A DNA stretch of 33,497 bases. It comes from Pseudomonadota bacterium. GTDB taxonomy: Bacteria > Desulfobacterota > Desulfobacteria > Desulfobacterales > Desulfobacteraceae. Each line of letters starts with the position of its first letter. The stretch's first letter is position 1. Of the stretch, positions 1-14,944 are shown in pieces. Location of the stretch: positions 1 to 33,497 of the forward strand of contig JAHJLN010000210.1 in assembly GCA_018821715.1 (NCBI GenBank), written 5' to 3'. A model generated the notes under the pieces. That model ran no database searches. It worked only from the letters and a program-made list of their open reading frames with translations, and was not told the DNA's origin. The translations under genes and the position numbers were made by a program.

Positions 1-318
1 ACTGTGCCAGTTCAAGACGCCTGCCTGAATGCCTTTGCCTTCAACCGCTTCTGCATAGGCGCCCGACGCTTTTGCAGGATCAGACTGTGAATCCACCCAC
101 ACGACTTCAATCTTGTAGTCACCAACCGTGTAATCGATGGTATCCATTGCCATTTCTACGGATGCTTTAAATTCCTTACCTGTCTGGGCTGAAGGACCGG
201 TAAAAGGTCCTAACACACCGACTTTCAACGTCTGGCCGGCTGCAAAGCATTGGCCTCCCATAATGAACAGCAGTGCAATCATGATGGTGATGATTTTCTG
301 AATCTTTTTTGTACCCAT
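1..318 (-). CDS. ABC transporter periplasmic binding protein, LivK/Peripla_BP_6 type (3' end outside window)
   Basis: Reading leftward from an ATG at 318, 106 codons are open to the window edge, so only the N-terminal part is present. It starts with a basic and hydrophobic signal peptide (about residues 1-26, ending near CFAAGQ). The next stretch, with LKVGVLGPFTGPSAQTGKEF, is typical of branched-chain amino-acid type binding proteins, which bind amino acids, amides or other small solutes in the periplasm for an ABC importer. A strong ribosome site (GGAGGGAAG) lies just upstream. A -24/-12 promoter candidate sits at 382-399. Because it neighbours a sigma-54 activator and a methylated-amine operon, uptake of that substrate is a reasonable inference. 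The ligand cannot be read from this fragment. Confidence 0.88.
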   Translation of the reverse strand, partial: MGTKKIQKIITIMIALLFIMGGQCFAAGQTLKVGVLGPFTGPSAQTGKEFKASVEMAMDTIDYTVGDYKIEVVWVDSQSDPAKASGAYAEAVEGKGIQAGVLNWHS

Positions 319-381
319 GAATCTTCCCTCCAAAGTTAATAAATTTATTGATGAAGCGACCTACACAAACAATTTAATAGA

Positions 382-399
382 ATGCACTTAGCATACCAA
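382..399 (-). promoter_or_regulatory. Candidate sigma-54 (-24/-12) promoter for the binding-protein gene
   Basis: Read on the minus strand this is TTGGTATGCTAAGTGCAT. The GG (-24) and GC (-12) dinucleotides have the required 12-base spacing, and the -12 box reads GTGCA. It implies a start near 371 and a leader of about 50 bases before the ATG at 318. The match to TTGGCACG-N4-TTGCW is imperfect in the CAC positions. An AT-rich region with a TTTACTGTAAA palindrome lies about 190 bases upstream, where an activator could bind. Confidence 0.55.
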
Positions 400-561
400 T
401 CCGAAAGAAGATTTTTGCAGTATATAAAGATTTTAAGGTGTACTATAAGACGAAACAGTGATTTGACAGGCTTTTTTTAAAAGATTTCCATAATAAAATA
501 AATTTTAAACTGTAAAAAAAAATCAGGACAACCTCTAAAAAATATAACAAAAATTTTTAAT

Positions 562-572
562 TTTACTGTAAA
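562..572. promoter_or_regulatory. Small palindrome, possible activator site
   Basis: TTTACTGTAAA is a perfect dyad around a single T. It lies between the binding-protein gene and the activator gene, about 190 bases upstream of the predicted sigma-54 start. A partial second copy (AAACTGTAAA) lies near 507-516, and a TTTTTTACAC string occurs both at 575-584 and at 2077-2086 in the other intergenic region. Base composition here is extremely AT-rich, so chance is a serious alternative. Confidence 0.25.
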
Positions 573-607
573 TTTTTTTTACACTTTTCCATTGGAAACA
601 CCATGGG

Positions 608-2017
608 TTACCGGACAAAAAAATCCTGCCGTCGAATCTGATATTTTTTTAACTTATAGTGAAAGGACTGGGGAGAAACGCCTATGCTTTCTGCAGCTTT
701 TGCCGCATTGCCGGCGGTTTTCTTAAGGGCATCACAGATCATTGTTTTTTCACTTTGGGCCTGGTTTTCAACCAGGCCCAAAGACCTCACGGACAGATCT
801 TGTTTTAATACTGACGGCTGGTGCTGTTTTGCAAAAGAAAAAATATGGGGCGGCAGATGTTCCGGCCGGATGGTTCTGCCGCCGGCAATCATATTCATGG
901 ACGCTTCTATGATATGTTCAAGCTCCCGGACATTCCCCGGCCAATGATACCGGCCAAACAGGTCTAACACCTCTTTGGAAATATCGTTTACCTGTTCATT
1001 CAATGCCGCATTATATTTTGCAATAAAATGCCGGATCAGTTCATCCAGCTCACCCCTGCGATCTCTTAGCGGCGGCAGCATAATGGACACCACACCCATC
1101 CTGTAAAACAGATCCATCCTCAAGACACCCTGCTGAACGATTTTTAACGGCGGCTGTCCCACAGAGCTCACAATTTTTACATTCAGGTCAATTTCCTTTA
1201 AGGATCCCAGCTTTCTAACTTTTTTCTCCTGGATCACCCTTAACAGCTTGGCTTGAAGTGTCAGCGGCATGGAATCCAGCTCATCTAAAAAAATAGTCCC
1301 CCCGTTGGCCTGCTCAAAAAGACCGCTTTTATCTATAGCCCCTGTAAAAACCCCCTTTGATGTCCCGAAAAGAATTCCTTCCAAAAGGTTTTCCGGAATC
1401 GCAGCACAATTGATCGGGATAAACAGCCTTTTCATTCTTGAGCTGTGATTGTGAATAGACTGGGCAAACAGCTCTTTTCCGGTTCCGGTCTCGCCATAAA
1501 TCATGATCGGGGATGGCGAGCTGGAGGACATCATGGCAATCCGCACTGCATTGCGCAAATCCGGGTCTGATCCAATGATATCGGAAAAATGAAACCGTGC
1601 ACTGCTGGTGGCTTTCTTTTTTTTAGAAACCGTTTGATCCTGTACCACTATTTTCTCCAGCTGCTGGTAGTCTTTACAAAAATTAATGGCCCCGATCAAT
1701 TTTCCCGACTTGTATAAAGGGTAGACATTGTTGAGAATATTGGCCACTTTTCCCAGCCGTGTCTGGTACAAGATAGTTTCATTCATGATGGGCATGCCGC
1801 TTTTCAGGCACCGCATGGTCGGGCTGGTCGTATCGTCAAGCAGGTAAATATCGGTAATCTTCTTTCCTAAGGCATCTTTTGGATCAACATCATCGATTTT
1901 GGCCTGAGTTTCATTAAAAAACCGGACAATGCCGTTGGTATCTGAAATCACGATGCCTTCGTGCATGGAAGCTAAAACTCTATAAATATCAATATCCTCT
2001 AAATTCAGCTTATTCAT
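608..2017 (-). CDS. Sigma-54-dependent activator 1 (PAS, AAA+, Fis-type HTH)
   Basis: An enhancer-binding protein of about 469 residues. An N-terminal PAS-like sensor covers roughly residues 10-125. The central AAA+ domain has Walker A GETGTGKE (about 175-182), Walker B GGTIFLDE, and a sigma-54 contact loop reading GVFTGA instead of the usual GAFTGA. A Fis-type helix-turn-helix closes the protein (NAAKAAESIGVSPQSFHYKL). An in-frame GTG at 2029 could extend it by four codons, but the GAGGAG ribosome site overlaps that GTG and fits the ATG at 2017 better. The gene is divergent from the mttB operon and lies upstream of the binding-protein gene, both of which have -24/-12 promoters, so it probably controls both. 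It is paralogous to the activator at 28444-30027. The sensor ligand is unknown. Confidence 0.93.
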   Translation of the reverse strand: MNKLNLEDIDIYRVLASMHEGIVISDTNGIVRFFNETQAKIDDVDPKDALGKKITDIYLLDDTTSPTMRCLKSGMPIMNETILYQTRLGKVANILNNVYPLYKSGKLIGAINFCKDYQQLEKIVVQDQTVSKKKKATSSARFHFSDIIGSDPDLRNAVRIAMMSSSSPSPIMIYGETGTGKELFAQSIHNHSSRMKRLFIPINCAAIPENLLEGILFGTSKGVFTGAIDKSGLFEQANGGTIFLDELDSMPLTLQAKLLRVIQEKKVRKLGSLKEIDLNVKIVSSVGQPPLKIVQQGVLRMDLFYRMGVVSIMLPPLRDRRGELDELIRHFIAKYNAALNEQVNDISKEVLDLFGRYHWPGNVRELEHIIEASMNMIAGGRTIRPEHLPPHIFSFAKQHQPSVLKQDLSVRSLGLVENQAQSEKTMICDALKKTAGNAAKAAESIGVSPQSFHYKLKKYQIRRQDFFVR

Positions 2018-2256
2018 ACTGTTTAACACTCCTCAGTGCCACGGTGATATCAAAAAATTTTTATGCTTCTTTCACCTTTTTTACACCTGCTTTTTAAATA
2101 AATGTCCTTTTTAATAAGGAAAGGCAAGAAAAATAAAAAAATTTTGATTTTTCCAATTTACATCGCCTACTAATTCTTGAAAAAATCGATCCAACAAATC
2201 TTTAACCCACTAAAATTAAAAGGAATATAACCAACTAACGGTTTTTAAAAACCCTA

Positions 2257-2272
2257 TGGCATGAATCATGCA
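2257..2272 (+). promoter_or_regulatory. Sigma-54 (-24/-12) promoter of the first mttB operon
   Basis: TGGCATGAATCATGCA has GG and GC exactly 12 bases apart, matching TGGCACG-N4-TTGCA at nearly all key positions. Transcription would begin near 2282, about 60 bases before the ATG of the methyltransferase gene. A sigma-54 activator is encoded divergently immediately upstream, which is the classical arrangement. Confidence 0.75.
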
Positions 2273-2288
2273 AATTTCAAGAAATCAA

Positions 2289-2316
2289 TTGTGAATATCA
2301 ATATTCAGCTTCACAA
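2289..2316. promoter_or_regulatory. Nested inverted repeats at the predicted transcript start
   Basis: TGAATAT-CA-ATATTCA (2292-2307) is a perfect 7-base dyad. An outer pair, TTGTGAA (2289-2295) and TTCACAA (2310-2316), is also complementary. The element lies in the predicted 5' leader just after the sigma-54 start, so it could be an operator or an RNA hairpin. No function is demonstrated. Confidence 0.35.
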
Positions 2317-2343
2317 CAACCATCAGACCAAGGGAGAGGTACC

Positions 2344-3762
2344 ATGGGATTTTTCGAATATTTTTCAAAAAGCCAGTTAGAACAGATTCACGAGGCCACA
2401 CTGACCATAATGGAGACAACAGGGCTTGTGTTTGCCTATGCGCCGGCAAGGGATGTTTTTGCCAGGGCCGGCTGTAAAATCGACGGGCACAGGGTATTTT
2501 TCCCGAAAAAACTGGTGGAAGAGCAGATAAAAAAAGCCCCGGCACAATTCACGCTGTATGCCAGAAATCCTGAAAAGAACGTGGTGATCGGCGGGGACCA
2601 TATCGCATTTATGCCCTGTTACGGCGCTCCTTTTGTCAATGACATGGATAAGGGCCGACGGCAGGGAACCCTTGAAGATTTTAACAATTTTGCCAAACTT
2701 GCCTGTAAAATTCCCTATATGGACATCACCGGCGGCATGATGACCGAACCCAATGATATCCCAATTGCCCACCGGAATGCCGAACGAATTAATTCTTCAA
2801 TGATTTTTTCCGACAAACCCTTTATGGGAGCCGGAACAGGGGCAAAAGATGCAGAACAAACCATTGAAATGGCATCCATTGTATTTGGAAGCCGTGAACA
2901 AATGGCTGAAAAACCGCCTTTTGTCAGTATTTTATGCTCCTTGACCCCCCTGGGATATGACGACAAAATGTGTGGTGGTATCATGGCATATGCTAAAGCC
3001 GGCATGCCCCAGTTGATTTCCTCTCTGACCATTGCAGGGGCCACGGGTCCTGTCACCATGGAAGGCACCCTGGTGGTCCAGAATGCTGAAATCCTTGCCG
3101 GCATCGCCTTGACCCAGCTTGTCAGGGAAGGCACACCCGTCATTTTTGCAGGGTCATCCTCTGCCGCTGCCATGCGCTACGGCACCTTGAGCATCGGCGC
3201 ACCGGAGATGGCAGTCAATACTGCTGCCACTGCCCAGATGGGACGGTTCTACAACCTGCCGGTCCGGGGCGGCGGTGCATTGACAGACTCAAAAACCGTT
3301 GATTCCCAGGCTGCCTATGAATCCATGATGAGCATGATGATGGCCACCATGAGCGGCATTAACTTTGTTCTTCACTCTGCCGGCATCCTTGAAGGGTATA
3401 TTACCGCATCCTATGAAAAATTCATCATTGACAGTGAAATCTGCGGCATGTGCAGAAGGATCAAACGCGGGGAAGACATTACAACTGAAAAGCTGGCACT
3501 GGATGTGATCCGCCAGGTCGGACCCGGTGGTGAGTATTTAACCAACCTGCATACGTTCAAACATTTCAAGCAGGAATTGTATGCCCCGATCCTTGAGGAA
3601 CGGGACAATTTCAGCTCCTGGACCACCAAAGGCAGCCTGACCATGGAACAGCGGGCCAATGCCAAATACAAAGAACTTTTAAACACCTATGAAGAACCGG
3701 ACATGGACAAGGCGGTTCGCAAAGATCTTGACGCCTATATGCTAAGAATTCGCACCGCATAA
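2344..3762 (+). CDS. MttB-superfamily corrinoid methyltransferase, non-pyrrolysine type (copy 1)
   Basis: A 472-residue member of the trimethylamine methyltransferase (MttB, COG5598) superfamily. These proteins transfer a methyl group from a quaternary or tertiary amine to the Co(I) of a cognate corrinoid protein in the cytoplasm. Family-typical segments include the N-terminal LEQIHEATLTIMETTG, a glycine-rich middle (PVRGGGALTDSKTVD) and the C-terminal QVGPGGEYL followed by HTFKHFK. The frame has no internal TAG, so this is not a pyrrolysine enzyme and groups with the non-Pyl relatives that include glycine betaine methyltransferase MtgB. It is first in an operon with an isomerase-like protein, a corrinoid protein and a pterin methyltransferase. 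AGGGAGAGG gives a good ribosome site. The exact substrate cannot be assigned from sequence. Confidence 0.93.
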   Translation: MGFFEYFSKSQLEQIHEATLTIMETTGLVFAYAPARDVFARAGCKIDGHRVFFPKKLVEEQIKKAPAQFTLYARNPEKNVVIGGDHIAFMPCYGAPFVNDMDKGRRQGTLEDFNNFAKLACKIPYMDITGGMMTEPNDIPIAHRNAERINSSMIFSDKPFMGAGTGAKDAEQTIEMASIVFGSREQMAEKPPFVSILCSLTPLGYDDKMCGGIMAYAKAGMPQLISSLTIAGATGPVTMEGTLVVQNAEILAGIALTQLVREGTPVIFAGSSSAAAMRYGTLSIGAPEMAVNTAATAQMGRFYNLPVRGGGALTDSKTVDSQAAYESMMSMMMATMSGINFVLHSAGILEGYITASYEKFIIDSEICGMCRRIKRGEDITTEKLALDVIRQVGPGGEYLTNLHTFKHFKQELYAPILEERDNFSSWTTKGSLTMEQRANAKYKELLNTYEEPDMDKAVRKDLDAYMLRIRTA

Positions 3763-3780
3763 ACAAATAAGGAGGCAAAC

Positions 3781-4656
3781 ATGTTACTGGGCCTGCACAC
3801 CTATAGTTTTCATCTGCACGGCATGGGGCAGAACTGGGGAGGACATACCCTCACCTGGCCACGGGTGATGGATATTTTCACGCTCATGGACTGGGCGGTC
3901 GACACAGGGCTTGACGGCCTTCATATCACGGCGGTTGACTGTGAAACAACGGACAGGGCGAGGCTTTTAACCATAAGAGATGCAGCAGAAGATCATGGCC
4001 TTTACCTTGAATACAATTTTTCTCTGGATGAAGAATTTGATTCCAGGCTGACCCATACACTGGAAGAAGGCATAAGGATTGCCCATACCCTGGGGTCTGA
4101 TATCGGAAAAGTCAGCCTGGACCTTCGTCGTCCCCGTCCCCTTTGCGCAAGCCGTCATCATCCGGATATCATGAACCAGCTTGGGCATGTCGCCGCACTC
4201 ACAAAAAACGTCCTGACCCTGACAGAAGATACCGGTGTCAGACTGGCATTTGAAAACCATACCGAATCTTTTGCCAGTGAAATCCTGTGGCTGATTGATG
4301 CGGTTAACCACCCCAATGTCGGCGCCTGTGTGGATACGGTAAATTCGGTAATGGTTTTAGAAGATCCCATGACCGCTATTGAAACCCTTGCCCCCAGGTC
4401 CTTTACAAACCATTTTTGTGATCACAGGATTGAACGGGACCAGTTCGGGTGTCGATTTACCGGTGTGGCCTGCGGGGATGGGGATATTGATCTGAATAAA
4501 GCCCTGGCCATATTCAAGGAAACCTCCTCCATGAATCGGATCAACATAGAAGTTGAATGGGATGCAGGCGATGACGACCCAAAAACCGCCCGGCAAAAGG
4601 AGTTTGATGCAGTGGTGAAAAGCATTCGCTACTGCCGGGATGTTTTGCACATTTGA
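3781..4656 (+). CDS. Sugar phosphate isomerase/epimerase-like TIM-barrel protein (AP endonuclease 2 family)
   Basis: A 291-residue xylose-isomerase-like TIM barrel. The usual metal ligands can be traced: Glu in LAFENHTES, Asp in GACVDTVNS, His in FCDHRIERD and Glu in INIEVEWDAG. The family mostly performs metal-dependent isomerisation or epimerisation of hydroxy-carbonyl compounds. A perfect AAGGAGG site precedes the ATG, and the gene sits 18 bases after the methyltransferase gene and ahead of the corrinoid gene, so it is probably part of the same pathway. It may act on the carbon skeleton of the substrate, but that is inference and no reaction can be named. Confidence 0.85.
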   Translation: MLLGLHTYSFHLHGMGQNWGGHTLTWPRVMDIFTLMDWAVDTGLDGLHITAVDCETTDRARLLTIRDAAEDHGLYLEYNFSLDEEFDSRLTHTLEEGIRIAHTLGSDIGKVSLDLRRPRPLCASRHHPDIMNQLGHVAALTKNVLTLTEDTGVRLAFENHTESFASEILWLIDAVNHPNVGACVDTVNSVMVLEDPMTAIETLAPRSFTNHFCDHRIERDQFGCRFTGVACGDGDIDLNKALAIFKETSSMNRINIEVEWDAGDDDPKTARQKEFDAVVKSIRYCRDVLHI

Positions 4657-4703
4657 AAATTACATGGAAAAAACCGTAAATCAAAAAAAACAGGAGAAAA
4701 AAA

Positions 4704-5336
4704 ATGGCGGATTTATCATTGATTACAGCAGCCCTTATTTCCGGAGACACAGAACAGGTCTGCACCCTTGTCCAAAAAGAGATTGAAAAAGGCACCCAGG
4801 CAAGTGAAATTTTAAACATCGGCCTGATTGCTGGAATGGATATTGTGGGAGAAAAAATGCAGAGCGGCGACATGTTTATCCCGGAAGTTTTAATGTCTGC
4901 CAGAAGCATGAACGAGGCGGTTGCAATTTTAAAACCCCTGCTCACTGAAGATGAAATGAGCACTGCCGGCCATATTGTCATTGGAACCGTAAAAGGCGAT
5001 CTCCACGACATTGGAAAAAACCTGGTATCCATGATGATTGAAAGTTCCGGATTTGAAGTCACCGATCTGGGAGTGGATGTGTCCCCGGATGCCTTTGTCA
5101 AAGCAGTACAGGAAAAAAAGGCAACGATTGTAGCCCTGTCCGCTCTTTTAACCACCACCATGCCCATGATGCAGCAGACCATTGATGCCCTGGTTGAAAG
5201 CGGGCTGAGAGACAAGGTCAAGATCATTGTGGGCGGCGCCCCGGTCAACCAGGATTTTGCCGACAAGATCGGTGCGGATGGGTATGCCCCGGATGCAGGG
5301 TCAGCCAGCAAGCTTGCCAAACAATTGTGGGCTTAA
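4704..5336 (+). CDS. Methyltransferase cognate corrinoid (cobalamin-binding) protein, MttC/MtgC-like
   Basis: A 210-residue B12 protein in the standard two-domain layout: an N-terminal helical cap (about residues 1-85) and a Rossmann-like cobalamin domain (about 88-210). The base-off, His-on motif D-x-H-x-x-G is present as GDLHDIGKN, with His101 as the predicted lower axial cobalt ligand. It would shuttle the methyl group from the MttB-type enzyme upstream to the pterin methyltransferase downstream. The ribosome site is ACAGGAG. Family length is usually about 210-220, so it is complete. Confidence 0.95.
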   Translation: MADLSLITAALISGDTEQVCTLVQKEIEKGTQASEILNIGLIAGMDIVGEKMQSGDMFIPEVLMSARSMNEAVAILKPLLTEDEMSTAGHIVIGTVKGDLHDIGKNLVSMMIESSGFEVTDLGVDVSPDAFVKAVQEKKATIVALSALLTTTMPMMQQTIDALVESGLRDKVKIIVGGAPVNQDFADKIGADGYAPDAGSASKLAKQLWA

Positions 5337-5361
5337 TTTTTTTTTAATAAAAGGAGAAACA

Positions 5362-6156
5362 ATGATCATCATTGGTGAACTGATTAATGCCAGCAGGAAA
5401 GCGGTTGCCGCTGCCATTGAATCCGGCGACAAACAAACCATCCAGAAAATTGCAACAGACCAGGCTCAGCATATGGCAAATTATATTGATGTGAATGCCG
5501 GTATTTTTGCTGACAAAGAGGCCGAATACCTGACATGGCTGGTTGAAACCGTCCAGGCGGCCACAGACGTCCCCTGTGCCATTGACAGCCCCAGCCCCAA
5601 GGCCATTGAGGCTGCCCTGAAGGTGCATAACGGCACTGCCATGATCAATTCCATCTCCCTTGAAAAAGAACGGTATGACAACCTGATGCCCATTATTGCC
5701 GGGACCGATCTCAAGGTGGTGGCGCTTTGCATGAGCGACGACGGCATGCCCGTTACCGTGGACGACCGGTTGAAAATTGCCGACAAACTGATTAACGGAC
5801 TGTTGCAGAACCATATACCCGTGGAAAACATTTTTATCGATCCCCTGGTTCAGCCGTTGTCCGTGGATAAAACATATGGGAAGGGATTTATCAACACCAT
5901 TGAAGCCATCACCCTAAAGTTCAAGGGGATTCATACTGCCTGCGGCCTGTCCAATATCTCCTACGGCCTGCCGGCACGGAAACATCTGAACCGTGCCTTT
6001 ATGATCCAGGCCATTTTAAAGGGACTGGACGGTGCCATTGTCAATCCCCTGGACAAGGGCATGATTTCTGCCATTGTCGCGGCAGAAGCTCTGGCAGGCA
6101 AAGATGACTACTGCATGAAGTATCTTAAAGCCTTTCGGGCGGGATTGTTTGAATAA
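5362..6156 (+). CDS. Methylcorrinoid:tetrahydrofolate methyltransferase (pterin-binding, MtgA/AcsE-like)
   Basis: A 264-residue pterin-binding TIM barrel, starting at the ATG after AAAAGGAGAAACA. Motifs of the dihydropteroate synthase/methyltransferase fold are clear: GELINASR near the start, YIDVNAG, CAIDSPSP, FIDPLVQPL and GLSNISYGLP. By family knowledge it moves the methyl group from the methyl-corrinoid protein to tetrahydrofolate, feeding the Wood-Ljungdahl methyl branch for oxidation or acetyl-CoA synthesis. It is 25 bases downstream of the corrinoid gene. The small size matches MtgA and AcsE rather than full methionine synthase. Confidence 0.93.
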   Translation: MIIIGELINASRKAVAAAIESGDKQTIQKIATDQAQHMANYIDVNAGIFADKEAEYLTWLVETVQAATDVPCAIDSPSPKAIEAALKVHNGTAMINSISLEKERYDNLMPIIAGTDLKVVALCMSDDGMPVTVDDRLKIADKLINGLLQNHIPVENIFIDPLVQPLSVDKTYGKGFINTIEAITLKFKGIHTACGLSNISYGLPARKHLNRAFMIQAILKGLDGAIVNPLDKGMISAIVAAEALAGKDDYCMKYLKAFRAGLFE

Positions 6157-6183
6157 CGATAGTTTAACAGGGTCTTTTTAAAA

Positions 6184-6591
6184 ATGAACAGTGTATTTAA
6201 CCATAGAAACTGCTCGGGATGCGGTATCTGCAAACTTGCCTGCAGCATTGAGAACTTCAGACAGGTCGGCCCCTCCAAGGCATTGCTGAGGATTCAAGGA
6301 TTATTTCCTGCACCCGGGCATTACCAGATCCATTTTTGCGACCAGTGCGGCGAATGTGCCAAGGTCTGTCCGGTGGATGCCTTTGAACTTGACAACGGCA
6401 TCTACCGGATCAATGAGGATGAATGCATTGCCTGCCACGAATGCGTGGAAGCCTGCCCCAAATCCGTCATGATCATTAAAAAAGAAGACGACATGCCGAC
6501 CAAATGCATCCTGTGCGGAGAATGTGCCAAGGCCTGCCCAAGAGGGGCCATCATGATATCCAGGAAAGAAAATGCCAAGGAGTGCCGCTGA
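6184..6591 (+). CDS. Polyferredoxin subunit with four 4Fe-4S motifs, partner of the AOR
   Basis: A 135-residue protein with four CxxCxxCxxxC clusters: Cys10/13/16/20, 52/55/58/62, 81/84/87/91 and 108/111/114/118. Such proteins pass electrons to or from an aldehyde:ferredoxin oxidoreductase. Its TGA overlaps the ATG of the AOR gene (TGATG), a strong sign of coupled translation and complex formation. The ribosome site is poor, so its own translation may depend on the upstream gene, 27 bases away. There is no signal peptide, so it is cytoplasmic. Confidence 0.93.
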   Translation: MNSVFNHRNCSGCGICKLACSIENFRQVGPSKALLRIQGLFPAPGHYQIHFCDQCGECAKVCPVDAFELDNGIYRINEDECIACHECVEACPKSVMIIKKEDDMPTKCILCGECAKACPRGAIMISRKENAKECR

Positions 6592-8474
6592 TGGACGGAT
6601 ATGCAGGAAAAATCTTAAGAATTGATCTGAGTAAAGAAAAAATCACAACAGAACCGCTGTCTGAAAAAATGTGTAATGAATTTATCGGCGGCAGGGGGTT
6701 TGTGGCAAAAACCCTTTACCAAGAACTGCCGCCTGATACAGAACCGTTTGGAGAGAACAACCTTTTTATTATTGCCACAGGCCCCTTGTCCGGCCATTTT
6801 CTTCCGGCAAGCGGCAAAACCCACTTTGGATCAAAATCCCCTGCTACCGGTGGATATGCAGATTCAAACATGGGGGGGCATTTTGGACCGGCCTTAAAAT
6901 ATGCTGGATTTGACATGGCGGTCATCACGGGAAAATCAAAGACCCCAAGTTATGTGTTTATCAAAGATGATATTGTTGAAATCCGGTCAGCCGACCCTTA
7001 TTGGGGGAAAGGCTCGCTGATCTGCGAAGACATGATGAAAAAGGATCTGGGAGAAGACTTCCAGATCCTGACCATTGGGCCTGCCGGAGAAAAAATGGTA
7101 AAGTTTGCCTGCATTTCCCATGATTTCGGCCGCCAGGCCGGACGGACCGGGATCGGTGCGGTCTTAGGGTCCAAGAACATCAAGGCCATTGCCGTTAAAG
7201 GCACGGGCGCCATCCCGGTATTTAATGTGGATAAGGCCTTTGCCAAAGGGAAAGAAGCTTTTCAAAAAGTCTTTCAAAAACCGGGATTCAAAGGATGGAC
7301 CCCGGAAGGAACGGCCGGCATCACCGACTGGGTCAATGAGGTCGGTGCGTTTCCCGCAAAAAATTTTCAAACCTCCCACATCGACCACAGCCACATGATC
7401 AATGGCAAAAAAGTCATTGAAAAATTGAAAATCACAGACAAGGGATGTTATTGCTGCCCAACTCCCTGCGGTAAATACGGTCATACCAGAACCAGCATGG
7501 GAGAAGCGTTTATGGAAGGCCCTGAATTTGAAACCATTTCCCTTTTTGGCGGCTCCTGCATGCTCAAAACCATTGAAGAGGTGGCCTATGCCAATTATCT
7601 GTGCGATGAACTGGGCATTGATACCATATCCGGCGCATCGGTGGCTGCATTTACCATTGAATGTTTTGAAAAGGGTCTGATACCTGCAGATGAGATTGGA
7701 AAAGAGGTAAAGTTCGGTGACCTTGAATCCATTGTCTATCTTCTGAACCTGATGAGCTTAAAACAGAATGCCCTTGGTGAACTGTTGTCACAGGGGGTTA
7801 AAACCGCGTCTGAAAACATCGGGAACGGGTCTGAAAAATTTGCCATCCATGTCAAGGGCCTGGAGTGGACCGGATATGAATGCCGCAATGCACCGTCCAT
7901 GATGCTGGCCTACATGACGGCGGACGTGGGAGCGCACCATAACCGTGCCTGGGTCCTGGGCCAGGATGTGGTGGGCGCTGCCACCAATGTCCATGACCTG
8001 ATATCTGCCGGCACAAAAGGGGATAAACGGCCCAAAGCCGTTATTTCAGGAAAGGATTCGGCACAGTTTGTCATTGATTCCCAGCACACCCGCCCGATTT
8101 TTGATCTTCTGGGGTGTTGCCGCCTGCAACTCATGGAACTGGGGTTTGAAGTTGAAAATTATGCAGAACTGTATTCAATTATCACGGGAAAAAAAATAAC
8201 CTGGGACGACCTGGTCAAGATTTCCGAAAAAGTATGGAACCTGACACGGATGATCTCGGCAAGGGAAATCAAAAATTTTGGCCGTGCCTTTGATTATCCA
8301 CCGGCACGATTTTACGAAGAGCCGACCCCCAGCGGCCCCAATAAAGGCTACTGCATCTGTCTTAAAGACCTGGATGAACTTCTGGATGCCTATTATACAG
8401 CGCGGGGATGGGATAAAAACGGGATTCCCACAAAAAGGACACTTGAGCGTGTCGGCCTGACTCACATGATTTAA
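6591..8474 (+). CDS. Aldehyde:ferredoxin oxidoreductase (tungsten/molybdenum bis-pterin enzyme)
   Basis: A 627-residue AOR-family protein. The ATG overlapping the ferredoxin stop is chosen because the protein then begins MDGYAGKILRIDLS, the family start. N-terminal GGRGF and GPLSG segments belong to the pterin-binding domain. The 4Fe-4S site is C-x2-C-x3-C (Cys286, 289, 293, in CYCCPTPC) plus a distal Cys in DLLGCC near residue 505. The DELGIDT and DLLGC segments correspond to the DxxG pterin motifs. The enzyme oxidises aldehydes to acids with ferredoxin as acceptor, or the reverse. Placement between methyl-transfer genes and a sarcosine-oxidase-like flavoprotein suggests it handles an aldehyde formed after demethylation; the particular aldehyde is unknown. 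Confidence 0.95.
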   Translation: MDGYAGKILRIDLSKEKITTEPLSEKMCNEFIGGRGFVAKTLYQELPPDTEPFGENNLFIIATGPLSGHFLPASGKTHFGSKSPATGGYADSNMGGHFGPALKYAGFDMAVITGKSKTPSYVFIKDDIVEIRSADPYWGKGSLICEDMMKKDLGEDFQILTIGPAGEKMVKFACISHDFGRQAGRTGIGAVLGSKNIKAIAVKGTGAIPVFNVDKAFAKGKEAFQKVFQKPGFKGWTPEGTAGITDWVNEVGAFPAKNFQTSHIDHSHMINGKKVIEKLKITDKGCYCCPTPCGKYGHTRTSMGEAFMEGPEFETISLFGGSCMLKTIEEVAYANYLCDELGIDTISGASVAAFTIECFEKGLIPADEIGKEVKFGDLESIVYLLNLMSLKQNALGELLSQGVKTASENIGNGSEKFAIHVKGLEWTGYECRNAPSMMLAYMTADVGAHHNRAWVLGQDVVGAATNVHDLISAGTKGDKRPKAVISGKDSAQFVIDSQHTRPIFDLLGCCRLQLMELGFEVENYAELYSIITGKKITWDDLVKISEKVWNLTRMISAREIKNFGRAFDYPPARFYEEPTPSGPNKGYCICLKDLDELLDAYYTARGWDKNGIPTKRTLERVGLTHMI

Positions 8475-8496
8475 AAGCAGATAAAGGAAACCAGAC

Positions 8497-9702
8497 ATGA
8501 GTGAAATAATTGTTCCAACACCTTTTGAGAAGAAAACAGCTGATGCCGTGGTCATCGGCGGCGGCATCGTGGGAGCTTCCACAGCCTTCTGGCTGTCAAA
8601 GGCAGGGCTTAAGGTCATTCTTGTTGAAAAACGGGATGCCCTTTCCTCCTTGACCACAGCTGCCAGTGTGGAGTGCTTTCGAACCCAGTTTACTGAAAAA
8701 GCCATGGCTGATCTGGCCCTTCCCAGTGTGGAAATGTTTGAAAATTTCAAGGACATTGTGGGCCTGCCGGATATTGATATTGGAATTACCCAGAAAGGAT
8801 ACCTGTTTGTAACCGATGAACCAGACAGGGTACCGGATCTTGAAAAAGCGATAAAACAATATGATAAACTGGGCATCCCCGGATCAGAGCTTATCAGCGG
8901 GCCTGATCTCCACAAACGGTTTCCCTTTCTTGCCCCCCGGGCCCTTGCCGCCACCTTTAACAACCGGGACGGCTGGATATCCACCCATGAAACCACCTAT
9001 GGTTTTGCCAAGGGATCAAAGGATGTTCAATTTTTTATCCGGACAAGGGTTACCGGGATTAACCTTGACAGCAACGGCATCTGCGGCGTTGAAACAGACA
9101 AGGGAACCCTTCATACCCGGCTGGTGGTCAATTGTGCCGGTCCCTATGCAGGGAGTGTGGGGGAAATGGCCGGGCTTGACATGCCCTTGAGAACCGTTCG
9201 ACGTCAAAAAGCATTTATCAGGACCTCCCGCAAGGGGGTGCCGCCAAATGCTCCGTTTACCGTGGACCTTGAAAACCACGCCTATTGGCGGCCGGAAGCC
9301 GGCGGGGTTATCTGCGCCTGGGTAGATCCGGATGAGCCGGACAGCCCGCCTTCGGACGAGCTTGCCACAGACTGGGATTTTGCCGCAGAATCCATTTACC
9401 GGGTATCCCGTCTCAACCCGTTTTTTGAAACCATTGCCGATGAATTAAAGGCAGAGGACGTTGATGTTTCTGCCGGTCAATACGTGTACACCCCGGATGA
9501 CAAACCTGTCATCGGTCCGTGTGATGAAATAAACGGCTTTCACTTGAACTGTGGTTACTGGTGCGGGGTCATGATGTCGCCGGAAGCAGGCAAAAGGGTG
9601 GCGGATATAGTCACAGGCAGGATGGACAACAAAGACAATCCATTGCGCTACAGCCGGTTTAAGGAAGGGGATGTTGAAAAAGGGGACACATTTTTAAAAT
9701 AA
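8497..9702 (+). CDS. FAD-dependent amine oxidoreductase, sarcosine/glycine oxidase or DadA-like
   Basis: A 401-residue DAO-family flavoprotein. The N-terminal dinucleotide fold shows VVIGGGIVGAS (about residues 18-28) with Glu44 at the end of the second strand, and the C-terminal FAD segment is KPVIGPCDE followed by HLNCGYWCGVMMSPEAGK. The family oxidises secondary or tertiary amines such as sarcosine, dimethylglycine or D-amino acids to imines, which hydrolyse to an aldehyde or keto acid. In an anaerobe an electron carrier rather than oxygen would be the acceptor. AAGGAAACC precedes the ATG, 22 bases after AOR. Oxidation of the demethylated product is the natural inference. Confidence 0.9.
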   Translation: MSEIIVPTPFEKKTADAVVIGGGIVGASTAFWLSKAGLKVILVEKRDALSSLTTAASVECFRTQFTEKAMADLALPSVEMFENFKDIVGLPDIDIGITQKGYLFVTDEPDRVPDLEKAIKQYDKLGIPGSELISGPDLHKRFPFLAPRALAATFNNRDGWISTHETTYGFAKGSKDVQFFIRTRVTGINLDSNGICGVETDKGTLHTRLVVNCAGPYAGSVGEMAGLDMPLRTVRRQKAFIRTSRKGVPPNAPFTVDLENHAYWRPEAGGVICAWVDPDEPDSPPSDELATDWDFAAESIYRVSRLNPFFETIADELKAEDVDVSAGQYVYTPDDKPVIGPCDEINGFHLNCGYWCGVMMSPEAGKRVADIVTGRMDNKDNPLRYSRFKEGDVEKGDTFLK

Positions 9703-9795
9703 AACAAGCCTTTTGTGTCAGACCGGCCTTGACATACCGTCCGACCAGTGGCAGGTTAAAATCCGGGCGAAAAAACAACTAAGGGGAGTCGTGGG

Positions 9796-12588
9796 GTGAA
9801 AAAAAAGCTGTGTGCCATTGCCTGTGCGGTCCTGGCCATTGATATGAAGCAGTGTGCCAAAACGCTGGGGCTGGATATTGAGTATAAATTCCTGGAAGCA
9901 GGGCTGCATAACACACCAAAACTGCTCAAGGAAAAACTCCAGGCAGCCATTGATGAAATTTCAGCCACCGGCCTTTGCGAAAGGATCATCATAGGATACG
10001 GCATCTGCGGCAAGGGAACCATTGGGATTCACGCCCGCAGTGTTCCCCTGGTCATTCCCAAGGTTCATGACTGTGTTGCCCTCTTTCTAGGCGGAGATGC
10101 CGCCTATAAAACTGAATTTCAAAAATATCCCGGAACCTATTATCTTTCAGCCGGGTGGTGTGAAGAAAAAACCGAACCCATGTCCCAGAGAAAGCAATGG
10201 ACCTATTTTGGCGATCAAAAACTGGAATTTAATGATCTGGTTGAAAAACACGGTGAACCTGCTGCCCGCCGGACTTTTGATTTTTTAAATTCCTGGCAGA
10301 AAAACTATCAGCGGGCCGCGTTTATTGAAACCAGTGTAAAAAAATCAGGCCGATATGAAAAATTAGCCCTGGAAATGGCAGAGGAATACAATTGGAAGTA
10401 TGATAAAATAAAGGGGAGCTCTAACCTTATCAAAAAAATGATCACGGCCGACCATTCAACCCCTGAGGTCCTGTTTGTACCGCCCGACCATGTCATCGGG
10501 TTTGATGCCATCCAATCCACCTTGTCTGCCAATCCCTTATGGGGTCATGAAACCCTAAAGCCTGAGGCCAATATTATAATCGAGGATCAAAAACCACCCG
10601 ATGAAGCTCACATAAAAATCGGTCTGGGCATTGATGCCGGCGGCACCTATACCGATGCAGTGATCTATGATCTTGAACAAAACAAAACCCTTTGCAAGAG
10701 CAAATCTCTGACCACAAAATGGGATTTCACCAAAGGCATTAAAAGCGCTTTAAACAAACTGGACCCGGAAAAACTGCGCCAGGTGGAGCTGGTAGCGTTG
10801 TCCACCACCCTTGCCACCAATGCCATTGTTGAAAACCAGGGCCAGACCGTCGGCATGATCCTCATGCCCCCCTATGGGCTTGGCATTGATAAAAACATCC
10901 CCTTTCATCCCAAGGCTGTTATTAAAGGCCAGCTGGACATCACGGGCAAGGTGCTGATTGCCATTGACCCGGATGAAATAAAAAAAACAGCAGCACAAAT
11001 GGTTGCAGCCCATAACGTAACCGCCTTTGCCGTATCAGGCTTTGCCGGTGCCATTAACCCTGAGCAGGAACTTAGGGTTAAAGATATTATCCAGCAGCAC
11101 ACCGGCTTTTTCGTCACCTGCGGCCATGAATTGTCCGACACCTTGAATTTCCAGACCCGGGCCATCACTGCCATGCTCAATGCACGGATTATCCCGAGAC
11201 TGACAAGCCTTCTTGCAGACCTCGAAACCGTCGTGGCCGAAAACAATATCCATGCCCCCATTGTCGTGGTAAAAGGGGACGGGACATTAATGAGTTCCTT
11301 TATGGCAAAGCAGCGGCCCGTGGAAACCATTTTATCCGGCCCTGCAGCCTCCGTGGCAGGGGCAAGACATCTGACCGGCATTACGGATGCACTGGTGGTG
11401 GACATGGGCGGGACAACAACCGATACGGCTGCCCTGACAAATAACCAGGTCAGCCTGAATGAAAAAGGCGCCTATATCGGGGGCCACAGGACCCATGTTC
11501 AAGCCCTTGAAATTCGAACCGTGGGACTGGGCGGGGACAGCCTGATCACATTTGAAAAAGGCGAGTGTATTATTGGTCCTAAAAGAGTCGCCCCGATTGC
11601 ATGGCTGGGGCACATGTATCCGGGAACCCGGGAAGCGATTACATTTTTAAATCAGCACTTGGATCACTACACCACTTCCAGCCGGAAAATGCAGATCCTT
11701 GCCGTTACCGGTTCCGTAAAACAGCTTAAGTTAACGCCCCTGGAAGAAAAAGTCCTCTGTCTGCTAAGAACAAGGCCCTATTCCATTGATGAACTGGTTC
11801 AGGAAACCGGGGTTCTTTCCGACGGCAGCCTGCCCCTGCAGCGGCTTGAAGAAAATTTTATCCTGCAGCGATGCGGCCTTACCCTGACCGACCTTCTGCA
11901 TATCACCGGGCAGTTTGTCAAATGGGATACAACCAGTGCCAAAGACTTTTGCGGGATGTTTAGTTTTTTAACAAAAAAACCTTTGCAAAAACTAACCGCC
12001 CACCTCCTGGAGATGGGGACAAACCGTCTAACCCTTGAGCTGTTAAAGCGCCAGCTTAGCGATGAAGTAGACCCTGAAGCAATGGACACCTGCCCTGTCT
12101 GCAAGGTCCTGATAAACACGCTGCTGACAAAAAAAAATCCCCATTACGGGGTCTCCATAAATCTTAACCGTCCTGTCATCGGCATTGGCGCACCCATTCA
12201 ATATTTTCTTCCCAAAGCCGTCATCCCCCTTGGCGCCCATGCGATTCTGCCGGATGATGCCGATGTGGCCAATGCCATTGGTGCCATTACCAGCAATGTG
12301 GTCATAAAAAAACAATTGCGGATCATTCCCGGGGACCAGGGCGGATTCATTGTGGAAGGAATTGTTGGAACCCGTCAGTTCAAAGAGTTTAACCATGCCG
12401 ACCAGTTTGCCAGAAAAGAACTGACCCGGATTGTCAGGGATCAGGCCGAAGCCTTTGGCACCAACTCCCAAACCGTCACCCTTGAAACCCGGGACCAGAT
12501 CCCCATCACCGCAGGCGGAGACCCTGTATTTATGGGAAGAATCATCTATGCCAGTTTAACCGGACGTCCGGACAGCGTTAAAAATTAA
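9796..12588 (+). CDS. DUF1638 plus hydantoinase-A/ASKHA fusion, candidate corrinoid-protein activator
   Basis: A 930-residue two-part protein, started at GTG 9796 behind AAGGGGAG. Residues 1 to about 215 match DUF1638, with Cys-rich signatures IACAVL, GYGICGKG and PKVHDCVALFLGG. From about residue 272 an ASKHA ATPase of the hydantoinase-A/oxoprolinase type begins: phosphate-1 loop GIDAGGTYTDAV, GDGTLMSS, VETILSGPAASVAGA and phosphate-2 loop VVDMGGTTTDTA. A winged-helix-like insert (about 640-700, around PYSIDELVQETG) and a CPVC pair (near residue 760) follow. Known corrinoid activators (RamA, RACE) combine ASKHA ATPases with Fe-S sites, so ATP-driven reductive reactivation of the local corrinoid protein is a good hypothesis. 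A hydantoin or lactam hydrolase remains possible. It is the last gene of the run. Confidence 0.82.
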   Translation: MKKKLCAIACAVLAIDMKQCAKTLGLDIEYKFLEAGLHNTPKLLKEKLQAAIDEISATGLCERIIIGYGICGKGTIGIHARSVPLVIPKVHDCVALFLGGDAAYKTEFQKYPGTYYLSAGWCEEKTEPMSQRKQWTYFGDQKLEFNDLVEKHGEPAARRTFDFLNSWQKNYQRAAFIETSVKKSGRYEKLALEMAEEYNWKYDKIKGSSNLIKKMITADHSTPEVLFVPPDHVIGFDAIQSTLSANPLWGHETLKPEANIIIEDQKPPDEAHIKIGLGIDAGGTYTDAVIYDLEQNKTLCKSKSLTTKWDFTKGIKSALNKLDPEKLRQVELVALSTTLATNAIVENQGQTVGMILMPPYGLGIDKNIPFHPKAVIKGQLDITGKVLIAIDPDEIKKTAAQMVAAHNVTAFAVSGFAGAINPEQELRVKDIIQQHTGFFVTCGHELSDTLNFQTRAITAMLNARIIPRLTSLLADLETVVAENNIHAPIVVVKGDGTLMSSFMAKQRPVETILSGPAASVAGARHLTGITDALVVDMGGTTTDTAALTNNQVSLNEKGAYIGGHRTHVQALEIRTVGLGGDSLITFEKGECIIGPKRVAPIAWLGHMYPGTREAITFLNQHLDHYTTSSRKMQILAVTGSVKQLKLTPLEEKVLCLLRTRPYSIDELVQETGVLSDGSLPLQRLEENFILQRCGLTLTDLLHITGQFVKWDTTSAKDFCGMFSFLTKKPLQKLTAHLLEMGTNRLTLELLKRQLSDEVDPEAMDTCPVCKVLINTLLTKKNPHYGVSINLNRPVIGIGAPIQYFLPKAVIPLGAHAILPDDADVANAIGAITSNVVIKKQLRIIPGDQGGFIVEGIVGTRQFKEFNHADQFARKELTRIVRDQAEAFGTNSQTVTLETRDQIPITAGGDPVFMGRIIYASLTGRPDSVKN

Positions 12589-12697
12589 GAATTGAATAAT
12601 CCTTGAGTGCTAATGCCCTGAATGATATATTGTTTTCTGAGGAAGACTTTTGCTTGCTGAAAATTAAAATACAACTATTTAATTATGGATTTAATAT

Positions 12698-13252
12698 ATG
12701 CAAAAAATCTATATCACTGCACAAGACCTGTTAGAAAGTTCTTTTAAACTGGCTCATGAGATTTATTCGGATGGTTTCCGCCCTCAGTTTATCGTTGGTA
12801 TATGGAGAGGAGGCACACCCATTGGCATTGCGGTGCAGGAATATTTTGAATATAAAGGTGTAAGTACTGATCATATTTCAGTACGTACATCTTCTTATTA
12901 CGGCATCAATCAACAGTCCAAGAAAATTCGTGTTCATGGTTTACACTATTTAATAGAAAACGCAAATTCAGGGGATAGTTTACTCATAGTTGATGATGTC
13001 TTTGATTCCGGACGTAGTGTGGATGCGTTGATAAAAGAGATAAAGAAGCAATCCCGGCTGAATACACCTTCCGATATTCGTGTGGCTTGTACATGGTATA
13101 AGCCTTCAATGTGTGCAGTAGATATCAAACCCGATTACTATACGCACAAAAGTGATGAATGGCTTGTATTTCCACATGAACTTAATGGTTTGACTAAAAA
13201 AGAAATAACGGAAAGAAAAACCGATCTTAAGAATATTCTATATCTGTTTTAG
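12698..13252 (+). CDS. Purine-type phosphoribosyltransferase
   Basis: A 184-residue type I phosphoribosyltransferase. The PRPP-binding loop is LLIVDDVFDSGRSVDAL (about residues 95-111), and the N-terminal FIVGIWRGGTPIGI carries the flexible PRPP and pyrophosphate loop. The family converts a purine base, probably hypoxanthine, guanine or xanthine, and PRPP to the nucleotide in the cytoplasm. Codon use is more AT-rich than in the operon upstream, the ribosome site is weak, and there is a gap of 109 bases, so it is probably an independent gene. The base specificity cannot be read. Confidence 0.85.
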   Translation: MQKIYITAQDLLESSFKLAHEIYSDGFRPQFIVGIWRGGTPIGIAVQEYFEYKGVSTDHISVRTSSYYGINQQSKKIRVHGLHYLIENANSGDSLLIVDDVFDSGRSVDALIKEIKKQSRLNTPSDIRVACTWYKPSMCAVDIKPDYYTHKSDEWLVFPHELNGLTKKEITERKTDLKNILYLF

Positions 13253-13468
13253 TATTTCACATATACAAGTTACTATGCTAACTGCTGGCAGTATTCTGAA
13301 CACCGGGGCTTTCTTTTTATACAGTCGCCAGCGCAGAGGCGTTCATTTCTTTTTTCAGTGCCTATGGCAAATCGAATTTCAAAAGTGTTTAAAAATATTA
13401 ACCAAAGTTCTTTTTTCGAATAAGGATGATAGGTTAAACTAAGATAATTAGATTTAAAAAAAGATTTG

Positions 13469-14944
13469 TCACATCACTTCAAGGGGATGGAAAACTTTCC
13501 TGGACATGGTCTGCTGGAATTGTATTCTGCAGCTCAGGCAGTCGGTAATGATGGTCCGGTCTTTTTCAGACAGAAATCTTTTAAACAGTGATTGACCGAT
13601 TCTAAGGGAGTGTGGATGGAAAGACGTTTTATATCCAAGATGTCCCCCCATACCGCAACACTGCATGCTTCCACCGATCTGGATAATATCCGAACCAGGA
13701 AAAAATTTGAGAAGGTTGTAATAGGGTTGCCCGATTTCCTGTTCCATTTGGTGGCAGGGTGCATAATAGATCATGGGGGTATCCGGCCGGGCCGGGTTGA
13801 GAATGAGTTTGCTGTTTGCCTGAATGGACAGAAGATATTCTCCCATATCTTTTATTTTGTTAGACAATTCTATCCGCTTTAAGGGATCAAGCAAAGAAAA
13901 GTATCCCTCATCCTTTAATATTTTTTGATAGATCCCTTTTGGGACTGTTGTAAAATTATTTTTCCCTGGCCCGAAAGGAACCTTCATAACATTATTGCCA
14001 GCGCCTGATTCCTCCTGAAAGGCATCTGAATAATAGGCATTTTCAAGGAGCAGTTTTTTAAAGAAATATCCGCAGGTTGGACAGGAACAGACAATGTCAT
14101 ATCCATTTTTCACAGATCTCAAAAGACTTTCCATATTCCCCTGTATTTTTTTTAAAGCTGTCTTTTTATCACCTTCCACAATCAATGGCATACCACAGCA
14201 TTCCTGTGGGGGGATAAAAACTTCAATATTATTTTGTTCCAGAATTCGTACAGCAGCCTTTCCAACTTCCGGGAAAAGGTATCCAGCACTGCACCCGGCA
14301 AAATAGGCAACCTTTGATGAGAACTGACTCTTGTTGTCTTTTGGAGAATTCAGCCCTCTTTTTTTTGCCCATAAAAAAAAGCTTTCTTTTGGAAAGACAT
14401 GCAGATGCCTTTCAGGATGTACGTTCAAGGCCTTTTTCAAGATGGAGGAAACAGGTGTCAACCTGTTTAATCGGTTAACAACTCTTGAGAATTCTGATCC
14501 AAGGCAACCCACTGCCGCAACATCAGAAAGTATTCGACCAGACAGTGAGATCCCATCTTCATCAATAAAAGCCGCTTTTGCCTGAAGGATAATCATTTTT
14601 ATATCCTGGCAGGGGCACAGTCCGCACATGGTACAACTATTGAGCAATTGACGAAGGTCTTTTGTGCAGACGGGCCGACTTGACGCTTCTGCCTGGTCAT
14701 TTAACCGATAAAGCTCGGGGAAAAAAAGACAGTCATCTTCCATGTGGAGCCTGCACACATCACAGCCGGCTTTTCCCGCACACTTTTCAAAAACTTTGAG
14801 GACTAAATCTTTTGCCGACATTCCCATATTTTGATGACATCCATTGCAATTTTTGACATCTGTTTTCCCTAACATAAACCAAGGTGCTTTAACATCTTTT
14901 TGTTTTATCTGTTGACAGGCGTTATATAAATCGTTATATTCCAT
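13469..14944 (-). CDS. CCG-domain iron-sulfur oxidoreductase subunit (GlpC/GlcF/HdrD-like)
   Basis: About 491 residues from ATG 14944; an in-frame TTG at 14971 gives 500, and neither start has a convincing ribosome site. The C-terminal half has two cysteine-rich CCG domains: YFAGCSAGYLF with QECCGMPL and CSCPTCGYFF, then YYAPCHQMEQ with QCCGMGGHLGYK. The N-terminal part is Cys-rich (CNGCHQN, CAGKAGCDVC, CTMCGLCPCQDI), giving one recognisable and one unusual cluster site. The family passes electrons between dehydrogenases and quinone or heterodisulfide-type acceptors. No partner dehydrogenase gene is adjacent, so its donor is unknown. CNGCH fits a CxxCH haem motif, but there is no signal peptide. 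Confidence 0.85.
   Translation of the reverse strand: MEYNDLYNACQQIKQKDVKAPWFMLGKTDVKNCNGCHQNMGMSAKDLVLKVFEKCAGKAGCDVCRLHMEDDCLFFPELYRLNDQAEASSRPVCTKDLRQLLNSCTMCGLCPCQDIKMIILQAKAAFIDEDGISLSGRILSDVAAVGCLGSEFSRVVNRLNRLTPVSSILKKALNVHPERHLHVFPKESFFLWAKKRGLNSPKDNKSQFSSKVAYFAGCSAGYLFPEVGKAAVRILEQNNIEVFIPPQECCGMPLIVEGDKKTALKKIQGNMESLLRSVKNGYDIVCSCPTCGYFFKKLLLENAYYSDAFQEESGAGNNVMKVPFGPGKNNFTTVPKGIYQKILKDEGYFSLLDPLKRIELSNKIKDMGEYLLSIQANSKLILNPARPDTPMIYYAPCHQMEQEIGQPYYNLLKFFPGSDIIQIGGSMQCCGMGGHLGYKTSFHPHSLRIGQSLFKRFLSEKDRTIITDCLSCRIQFQQTMSRKVFHPLEVM

Follow-up and report, generated by a model that had tools for sequence, protein, structure and literature searches.

A modular locus of Desulfobacteraceae links a quaternary-amine methyltransferase to a flavoprotein and a tungsten-type aldehyde oxidoreductase

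Introduction

What becomes of the amine that is left once a methyl group has been removed from a quaternary amine? The question is raised by eight genes (2344-12588, + strand) on a 33,497-nucleotide stretch of a Desulfobacteraceae genome (assembly GCA_018821715.1, contig JAHJLN010000210.1, positions 1 to 33,497; 'the window'). In this operon a homologue of the methyltransferase MttB (MttB1) and its methyl-transfer partners are followed by a polyferredoxin, an aldehyde oxidoreductase (AOR) and a DAO-family flavoprotein (DAO). We propose, with a probability of roughly 55%, that the operon serves the catabolism of a quaternary amine with a carboxyl group, either in place of glycine betaine or in addition to it, and most likely of the proline type, by way of MttB1, DAO and AOR.

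Quaternary amines are abundant osmolytes of marine sediment. In the MttB-type literature, as far as the available texts describe it, the methyl group is traced to tetrahydrofolate or coenzyme M, and the remaining amine stays as it is or undergoes further demethylation or reductive cleavage. MttB and AOR in one pathway were not found in the open-access literature searched; the available text of PMC11291895 and PMC11505543 does not join the two. If our reading is correct, the operon couples the first demethylation to oxidation of the residue, gaining low-potential electrons, and gives a physiological context to a tungsten enzyme that resembles formaldehyde oxidoreductase (FOR) and whose substrate we infer below.

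Organization of the operon

The initial annotation placed eight genes on one strand, separated by short gaps or overlaps. Profile matches and coordinates agree with this, with the order and with both ends.

2344-3762, +, MttB1, non-pyrrolysine quaternary-amine:corrinoid methyltransferase of the MtgB clade (PF06253, 534 bits, positions 31-494/500)
3781-4656, +, xylose-isomerase-like TIM barrel (AP_endonuc_2 domain match), a metal-dependent epimerase/isomerase fold
4704-5336, +, corrinoid protein, MtgC-like, B12-binding (NF047996, 218 bits, below the cut-off of 370)
5362-6156, +, methylcorrinoid:tetrahydrofolate methyltransferase, pterin-binding (NF005719, 337 bits; cut-off 259)
6184-6591, +, polyferredoxin with four CxxCxxCxxxC motifs, proposed electron-transfer partner of AOR
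6591-8474, +, AOR, tungsten-type, FOR-like (PF02730, AFOR_N, 255 bits; PF01314, AFOR_C, 366 bits)
8497-9702, +, DAO-family flavoprotein of 401 residues (PF01266; 1y56_B/SoxB/DMGDH-like), the hub of the conserved locus
9796-12588, +, DUF1638 (PF07796, 136 bits, residues 32-216) fused to a Hydant_A_N/Hydantoinase_A ASKHA domain

The intergenic gaps are 18, 47, 25, 27, -1, 22 and 93 bases, assuming starts at ATG 5362 (pterin enzyme), ATG 6591 (AOR) and GTG 9796 (DUF1638-ASKHA); a mechanical list of open reading frames (ORFs) puts the starts of the pterin enzyme and of AOR further 5'.

Conservation of the locus and co-occurrence of DAO and AOR

Gene content, conservation, co-occurrence and, by alignment, active-site residues are directly seen. 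Scanning the genomes with DAO, with presence judged by homology, gave 30 loci from 29 genomes; many contigs are short, so that the presence counts are lower bounds. Desulfo- taxa account for 28 of the 30, the other two being labelled 'uncultured proteobacterium' and 'Deltaproteobacteria'. MttB1 (70-84% identical) is present at 21 loci, on the opposite strand in one (L099), and 21 of the 29 genomes hold MttB1 at an identity of at least 70%. The DUF1638-ASKHA gene is found at 15 loci and AOR with the polyferredoxin at eight; corrinoid and pterin genes are found at none of the 30.

The initial annotation's reading of the operon is supported in part. The complete eight-gene order was not found elsewhere among the loci examined; a six-gene version (MttB-TIM-corrinoid-pterin-polyferredoxin-AOR) runs to the contig end in one genome (G443, locus L192). 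What varies is the slot between the TIM barrel and the polyferredoxin, which is empty in L082 and holds a second MttB homologue (MttB2) in L085 and L086, an MR_MLE-type gene plus MttB2 in L087 and L088, and the corrinoid and pterin genes in the window and L192. The eight genes are therefore not a fixed unit, as had been supposed, but one version of a modular locus in which the corrinoid/pterin pair is a variable insert and AOR comes and goes. Other families of the order carry further versions. One genome (G532) has MttB2'-polyferredoxin-AOR-DAO-TIM barrel. Another (G105) has DAO-MttB1'-polyferredoxin on one contig and AOR, a sigma-54 activator, MR_MLE and MttB2 on another; the ends of the two contigs share 116 15-mers, the first five listed being collinear, with one mismatch seen, and the contigs probably abut, the polyferredoxin continuing into AOR. 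Gene calls in the survey took the longest ORFs, and antisense frames were taken over MttB1 (L194), AOR (L116) and the corrinoid gene (L141); the homology-based counts over the 30 DAO loci are unaffected.

DAO and AOR also occur together when they are not neighbours. Among 145 relatives, the window's genome included, AOR (subfamily threshold E 1e-140) is present in 35 and DAO (E 1e-90) in 35; 29 have both, six AOR alone, six DAO alone and 104 neither (Fisher 7e-19). Leaving out the ten same-contig cases and G105 gives 18/6/6/104 (Fisher 1.5e-12). The genomes are related and these values overstate independence, though the pattern also holds within the genus (8/1/1/16, Fisher 5e-5). The AOR-alone genomes are G443, which ends inside AOR, G454, G488, G499, G501 and G537; the six DAO-alone genomes are 52-83% complete. 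Of the 29 genomes with DAO loci, a set that overlaps with the 145, eight carry the AOR of the locus (72-86% identity), 16 carry an AOR of 58-62% identity instead, none carries both and five carry neither. Across 395 genomes of the phylum, a close AOR (E 1e-180) occurs in that of the window and in G105 (64%), and three more genomes have one at 45-46%; a close DAO (at least 59%) occurs in the window's genome, G105 and G279. DAO and a subfamily AOR (61 and 62%) are also found in two named strains, Desulfospira joergensenii DSM 10085 and Desulfocicer vacuolatum DSM 3385, MttB1 being present only in the former; both make the proposal directly testable.

That the AOR pair and the flavoprotein might never occur with this MttB clade, a refuting condition set by the initial annotation, is answered by the 21 DAO loci with MttB1 and by the joint distribution of AOR and DAO. 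The comparative evidence supports a single pathway that would join methyl transfer to the flavoprotein and AOR, with modular gene content.

One DAO locus stands apart (L070 13334-16971, in G279): DAO adjoins octopine-dehydrogenase-like and ornithine-cyclodeaminase (OCD) genes, and neither MttB nor AOR was recognised beside it. The opine catabolism that this arrangement might suggest was set aside, as the octopine-dehydrogenase query yielded no match in L127-L146, L188-L195 and L130, the only loci searched.

MttB1 and its predicted binding site

MttB1 lacks an in-frame TAG, has Leu in the pyrrolysine column and scores 407 bits with TIGR02369, under the cut-off of 525. It matches the solved MtgB structures at 505 bits and is 49% identical to MtgB of Desulfitobacterium hafniense. 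In the tree its 22-row clade (support 100/100) adjoins D. hafniense MtgB and 4yyc (93/81) inside a 34-row MtgB clade (100/99). A docking model predicts the glycine-betaine contacts of MtgB to be Y94, N199, R309, H345 and F/Y353 (PMC6855144, from the available text). All 22 members of the MttB1 clade keep Y94, R309, H345 and an aromatic residue at 353 (Y), and all 22 have replaced N199, by C in nine (the window's protein among them) and by T in 13. In the sister clade of canonical MtgB-like proteins N199 is kept in six of nine rows. In the exceptions the residue is S in G105, where the gene adjoins that of the flavoprotein, T in G279, where it does not, and D in G397, and all three genomes carry the flavoprotein; a second copy in G105 retains N199.

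Three relatives, G398, G401 and G402, have at another place a canonical MtgB-like gene (68-69% identical to a sister-clade member) accompanied by genes for a corrinoid protein and a pterin enzyme. This cluster shares a contig with the operon in G398, where a DMGDH-like gene goes with it, and in G402. Such genomes probably already possess an enzyme for glycine betaine. Because N199 is replaced and relatives have a separate canonical MtgB cluster, the substrate of MttB1 is probably a larger or different betaine.

Elsewhere in the window's genome, on contig C20 (3340-4755, - strand; L004/L078), a further MttB homologue has one in-frame TAG and is 44% identical to pyrrolysine MttB. It adjoins a DAO-family gene of ~820 residues that clusters with DMGDH-like genes, and the pair is likely to be a pyrrolysine-type trimethylamine system.

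The proposed oxidative branch

The best solved relative of DAO is 1y56_B (128 bits), which we take to be the beta subunit of archaeal L-proline dehydrogenase; dimethylglycine dehydrogenases (DMGDHs) are also near. A domain scan of the 401-residue protein found no GCV_T folate-binding domain of the DMGDH type. Its predicted structure was poor (mean pLDDT 38.5) and was left out of the analysis.

AOR is closest among solved relatives to FOR of Pyrococcus (437 bits), the next being an AOR (378 bits). In what we take to be the FOR numbering, the second-shell residues E308, Y416 and H437 and the arginines R481 and R492 are kept in all 24 subfamily members examined (19, then five more: L188, L189, L190, L191 and L130), and both arginines, which presumably hold glutarate in FOR, are missing from the solved AOR 9mqx. 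According to a review, FOR binds glutarate in a crystal, and its natural substrate may be the semialdehyde or dialdehyde of glutaric acid (PMC12096430, from the available text). By analogy, AOR may act on a C5 semialdehyde of the glutamate-semialdehyde type. The exchange Y307F was considered as a mark of operon-linked AORs, nine of nine linked copies having F and ten of ten others Y at first, and was dropped when the linked L188 and G105 (L130) copies proved to have Y and the unlinked L189 copy F.

Neighbouring genes give a second indication of the substrate. Three of the 14 AOR loci with no adjoining DAO (L112-L122, L189-L191) have proline-enzyme neighbours. AOR is near a BCCT transporter, MttB2' and proline dehydrogenase (Pro_dh) in L190, whose genome, G499 (one contig), gave no DAO hit; near PutA, a GntR regulator and MttB2' in L116; and near a BCCT-like gene and a P5C-reductase-like protein in L113 (Desulfocicer vacuolatum). 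In L189 it is near an MR_MLE protein and a sarcosine-oxidase alpha subunit. At another locus (L120 14810-18206) AOR and corrinoid/MttB genes have a PFL-like glycyl radical enzyme gene and one of the radical-SAM type in their vicinity.

Proposed pathway and alternatives

Proline betaine shares the alpha-carboxylate geometry of glycine betaine and is bulkier. This geometry, the FOR-like AOR and the proline-enzyme neighbours lead us to favour a proline-type betaine and a semialdehyde of the glutamate type, a choice of substrate that we regard as tentative. We infer all reactions, the substrate and the order of steps from sequence comparison, as follows. MttB1 would shift one methyl group to the corrinoid protein, and the pterin enzyme would hand it to tetrahydrofolate for oxidation; the DUF1638-ASKHA protein would re-reduce oxidised corrinoid with ATP. 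DAO would oxidise the leftover N-methylated amino acid (N-methylproline in the case of proline betaine) to an iminium, which would open to a semialdehyde. The polyferredoxin-AOR pair would turn this into the acid (N-methylglutamate) and low-potential electrons, and DMGDH/SOX-type enzymes with folate domains, encoded elsewhere or, in relatives, at the locus, would strip the remaining N-methyl groups. The order first suggested, flavoprotein to aldehyde and AOR to acid, fits the FOR-like active site and the proline enzymes beside three relatives. Taken in full, as a hitherto undescribed route by which sulfate reducers degrade proline-type betaines anaerobically, through N-methylproline and N-methylglutamate semialdehyde to a tungsten FOR-like oxidase feeding ferredoxin, with a fused DUF1638-ASKHA activase, the scheme is possible and rather speculative.

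Several observations weigh against this proposal. The proline-neighbour pattern was noticed post hoc, at three of 14 loci; those loci involve MttB2' or no MttB, not MttB1, and the genomes of L113 and L116 carry DAO elsewhere too. The N199 contact comes from docking, not from a ligand structure, and MttB1 was set beside the proline-betaine enzyme MtpB by description, not by sequence. AOR accompanies DAO at a minority of loci, the relatedness of the genomes inflates the co-occurrence statistics, and the window AOR has F in place of Y307, the only listed FOR residue that it lacks. DMGDH/SOX genes with folate domains near the locus fit glycine-type substrates equally well, and no known proline-betaine epimerase is among the named best matches of the MR_MLE protein of L087.

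The strongest rival keeps to glycine betaine: MttB1 or canonical MtgB would produce dimethylglycine, DAO would free N-methyl groups as formaldehyde and the FOR-like AOR would oxidise this to formate. The position of MttB1 inside the MtgB clade, the resemblance of DAO to sarcosine and dimethylglycine enzymes without GCV_T, and an AOR whose best solved relative is formaldehyde oxidoreductase are all consistent with such a route, as are the Liv-type ABC transporter that follows at many loci and a large DAO-family gene (27-29% match) at 13 of the 30 DAO loci, whose L090 copy, the only one scanned, is DMGDH-like with GCV_T. We nevertheless consider it unlikely. N199 is replaced throughout the MttB1 clade, the three relatives examined have a separate canonical MtgB cluster, formaldehyde requires neither the C5 preference of FOR nor its two arginines, and the proline enzymes beside three AOR copies would be unaccounted for.

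A straight-chain betaine (gamma-butyrobetaine, carnitine or beta-alanine betaine) would be demethylated once, DAO would then cleave off dimethylamine and AOR would take succinic, malic or malonic semialdehyde. Some MttB homologues are known to act on gamma-butyrobetaine and carnitine (PMC8604678, from the available text), a FOR-like AOR suits a C4 semialdehyde and BCCT transporters adjoin some related loci; but MttB1 is nearest to the glycine-betaine enzyme, with four of five predicted contacts kept, and a dimethylamine methyltransferase (PF09505) is present in ten of 32 genomes and absent from the window's own. Release of dimethylamine was rejected on this last count, and the route as a whole is improbable.

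DAO might instead be an electron-transfer flavoprotein subunit of the AOR complex, like AorC, and not an amine oxidase. In its polyferredoxin-AOR-flavoprotein order the operon is reminiscent of the three-subunit AOR of Aromatoleum (PMC12096430, from the available text), and the co-occurrence of DAO and AOR is strong. Such a role is very unlikely because DAO sits with MttB1 but without AOR at 15 of the 30 loci; moreover, 18 of the 29 genomes holding both genes have DAO and AOR at separate places (G105 excluded), and the DAO family oxidises amines and amino acids. That a methyl-transfer operon merely precedes an unrelated oxidative one would suit the variable gene order and the AOR copies found elsewhere, but is scarcely credible given that DAO and AOR co-occur unlinked and are linked in other families.

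Relation to known systems

MtgBCA (D. hafniense and others) has in common with the operon a non-pyrrolysine MttB homologue of the same clade, a corrinoid protein and a pterin methyltransferase. The operon differs in the replaced N199, in the added TIM barrel, polyferredoxin-AOR and DAO, and in its proposed activase, the DUF1638-ASKHA fusion; moreover, a canonical MtgB cluster exists separately in the three relatives examined. MtpB, MtcB, MtyB and MthB of Eubacterium limosum, compared by description only, belong to the same superfamily and follow the same methyl-transfer logic through shared corrinoid and pterin proteins, whereas an oxidative branch is absent from the available descriptions. 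The aerobic marine MtgBCD system with RamA and DUF1638 shares an MttB-type enzyme, a DUF1638 reactivation module and, often nearby, genes of later demethylation; it is aerobic and methionine-coupled, and the available text (PMC12478193) does not mention AOR. Strain DCMF, which converts glycine betaine to sarcosine, resembles the operon in that methyl transfer precedes use of the residue, but there a selenoprotein complex encoded in a separate cluster breaks the residue down by reductive cleavage instead of oxidising it (PMC9768040, from the available text).

On the oxidative side, FOR of Pyrococcus furiosus shares its active-site residues, except Y307, with AOR of the operon. AorABC of Aromatoleum likewise has a four-cluster (4Fe-4S) polyferredoxin next to AOR. 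The third gene of the operon, however, is of the DAO family and not a dedicated FAD/NAD subunit (AorC being compared by description only), it occurs without AOR at 22 of the 30 loci, some on short contigs, and the operon is linked to methyl transfer.

The DUF1638-ASKHA protein and the TIM barrel

The DUF1638-ASKHA protein lacks the DUF4445 and ferredoxin domains of RamA/RACo and has Hydant_A_N, Hydantoinase_A and DUF1638 instead. In Phaeobacter, methionine rescues mutants in the DUF1638 gene as it does RamA-like mutants, the authors making no specific proposal for DUF1638 in the available text (PMC5764234), and in Ruegeria growth on N-osmolytes goes with higher levels of the DUF1638 protein (PMC12478193, from the available text). 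In view of these data the fusion looks like a corrinoid reactivator rather than a pathway enzyme. If so, it indicates that DUF1638 acts together with an ASKHA ATPase to reactivate corrinoids, a point left open in the available text of PMC5764234. A hydantoinase function was rejected, as DUF1638 argues for a role with corrinoids and the window proteins scanned include no partner subunit.

In the TIM barrel, E158, D185, H211 and E257, which we take to be the metal-binding places of the fold, are invariant across 11 sequences. Its predicted model (pLDDT 84.8) matches the folds of D-tagatose 3-epimerase and IolI.

Regulation

Two features 5' of MttB1 point to sigma-54 control.

608-2029, -, divergent PAS and sigma-54 activator (nearest NCBIfam model PrdR, 363 bits, below the cut-off of 795)
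2257-2272, +, sigma-54-type promoter TGGCATGAATCATGCA, 2 mismatches to the consensus

Of the 18 relatives examined (out of 21 MttB1-holding loci), 16 have a similar site ahead of MttB1, L086 and L090 having none, against a background of 2.2% of random 320-base stretches, and the divergent activator is recognised at most MttB1-holding loci. Promoter-like (21 versus 22.3) and terminator-like matches (16 versus 19.9) within 1-15000 are at shuffle level, and the same scan found no + strand terminator-like site at the operon junctions. The operon is probably a sigma-54-controlled catabolic unit of a marine sulfate-reducing bacterium.

A second cluster and flanking genes

Towards its 3' end the window holds a second cluster, with another sigma-54-type site upstream.

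28444-30027, -, second PAS and sigma-54 activator
30086-30874, -, Asp/Glu-racemase-like protein (NF005679, 280 bits; cut-off 231), beside MttB2 in L129, L132, L133 and L135
30885-32321, -, MttB2, the second non-pyrrolysine MttB homologue, within the MttB1 operon in L085-L088
32358-33335, -, OCD/alanine-dehydrogenase/pyrroline-2-carboxylate-reductase-like protein

The nearest matches to OCD are archaeal alanine dehydrogenase and pyrroline-2-carboxylate reductase. L129, L133 and L135 show the same order, OCD-MttB2-racemase, which in L135 has a BCCT-like gene upstream. Of 32 genomes, 19 carry MttB2 or a relative (at least 46%). MttB2 has none of the five predicted glycine-betaine contacts. Its place inside the MttB1 operon in L085-L088 is why we count 2344-12588 and 28444-33335 as parts of what would be one system.

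MR_MLE-type enzymes stand beside MttB2 or AOR at three loci (L130 5181-6476, L087 4654-5838 and L189 7884-8786) and might epimerize a chiral betaine. The L087 and L088 proteins are 91% identical to each other. A role as hydroxyproline-betaine epimerase was rejected for them: the best solved matches of the L087 protein (among the best 60 of 76 listed) are other MR_MLE proteins, and its NCBIfam matches are all below cut-off, the best being hydroxyproline dehydratase.

A phosphoribosyltransferase-like gene (12698-13252), 109 bases past the DUF1638-ASKHA gene, is a possible ninth member of the operon; it has no match in the 30 DAO loci. The start of a Liv-type solute-binding protein (1-333, -) is cut by the contig end; in many relatives this place is followed by an ABC transporter, often with a DMGDH-like gene. 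At 15104-18028 an ArsR-type regulator, an ArsP permease, a thioredoxin and a DsbD-like gene lie in a row, likely an arsenic or redox-stress cluster.

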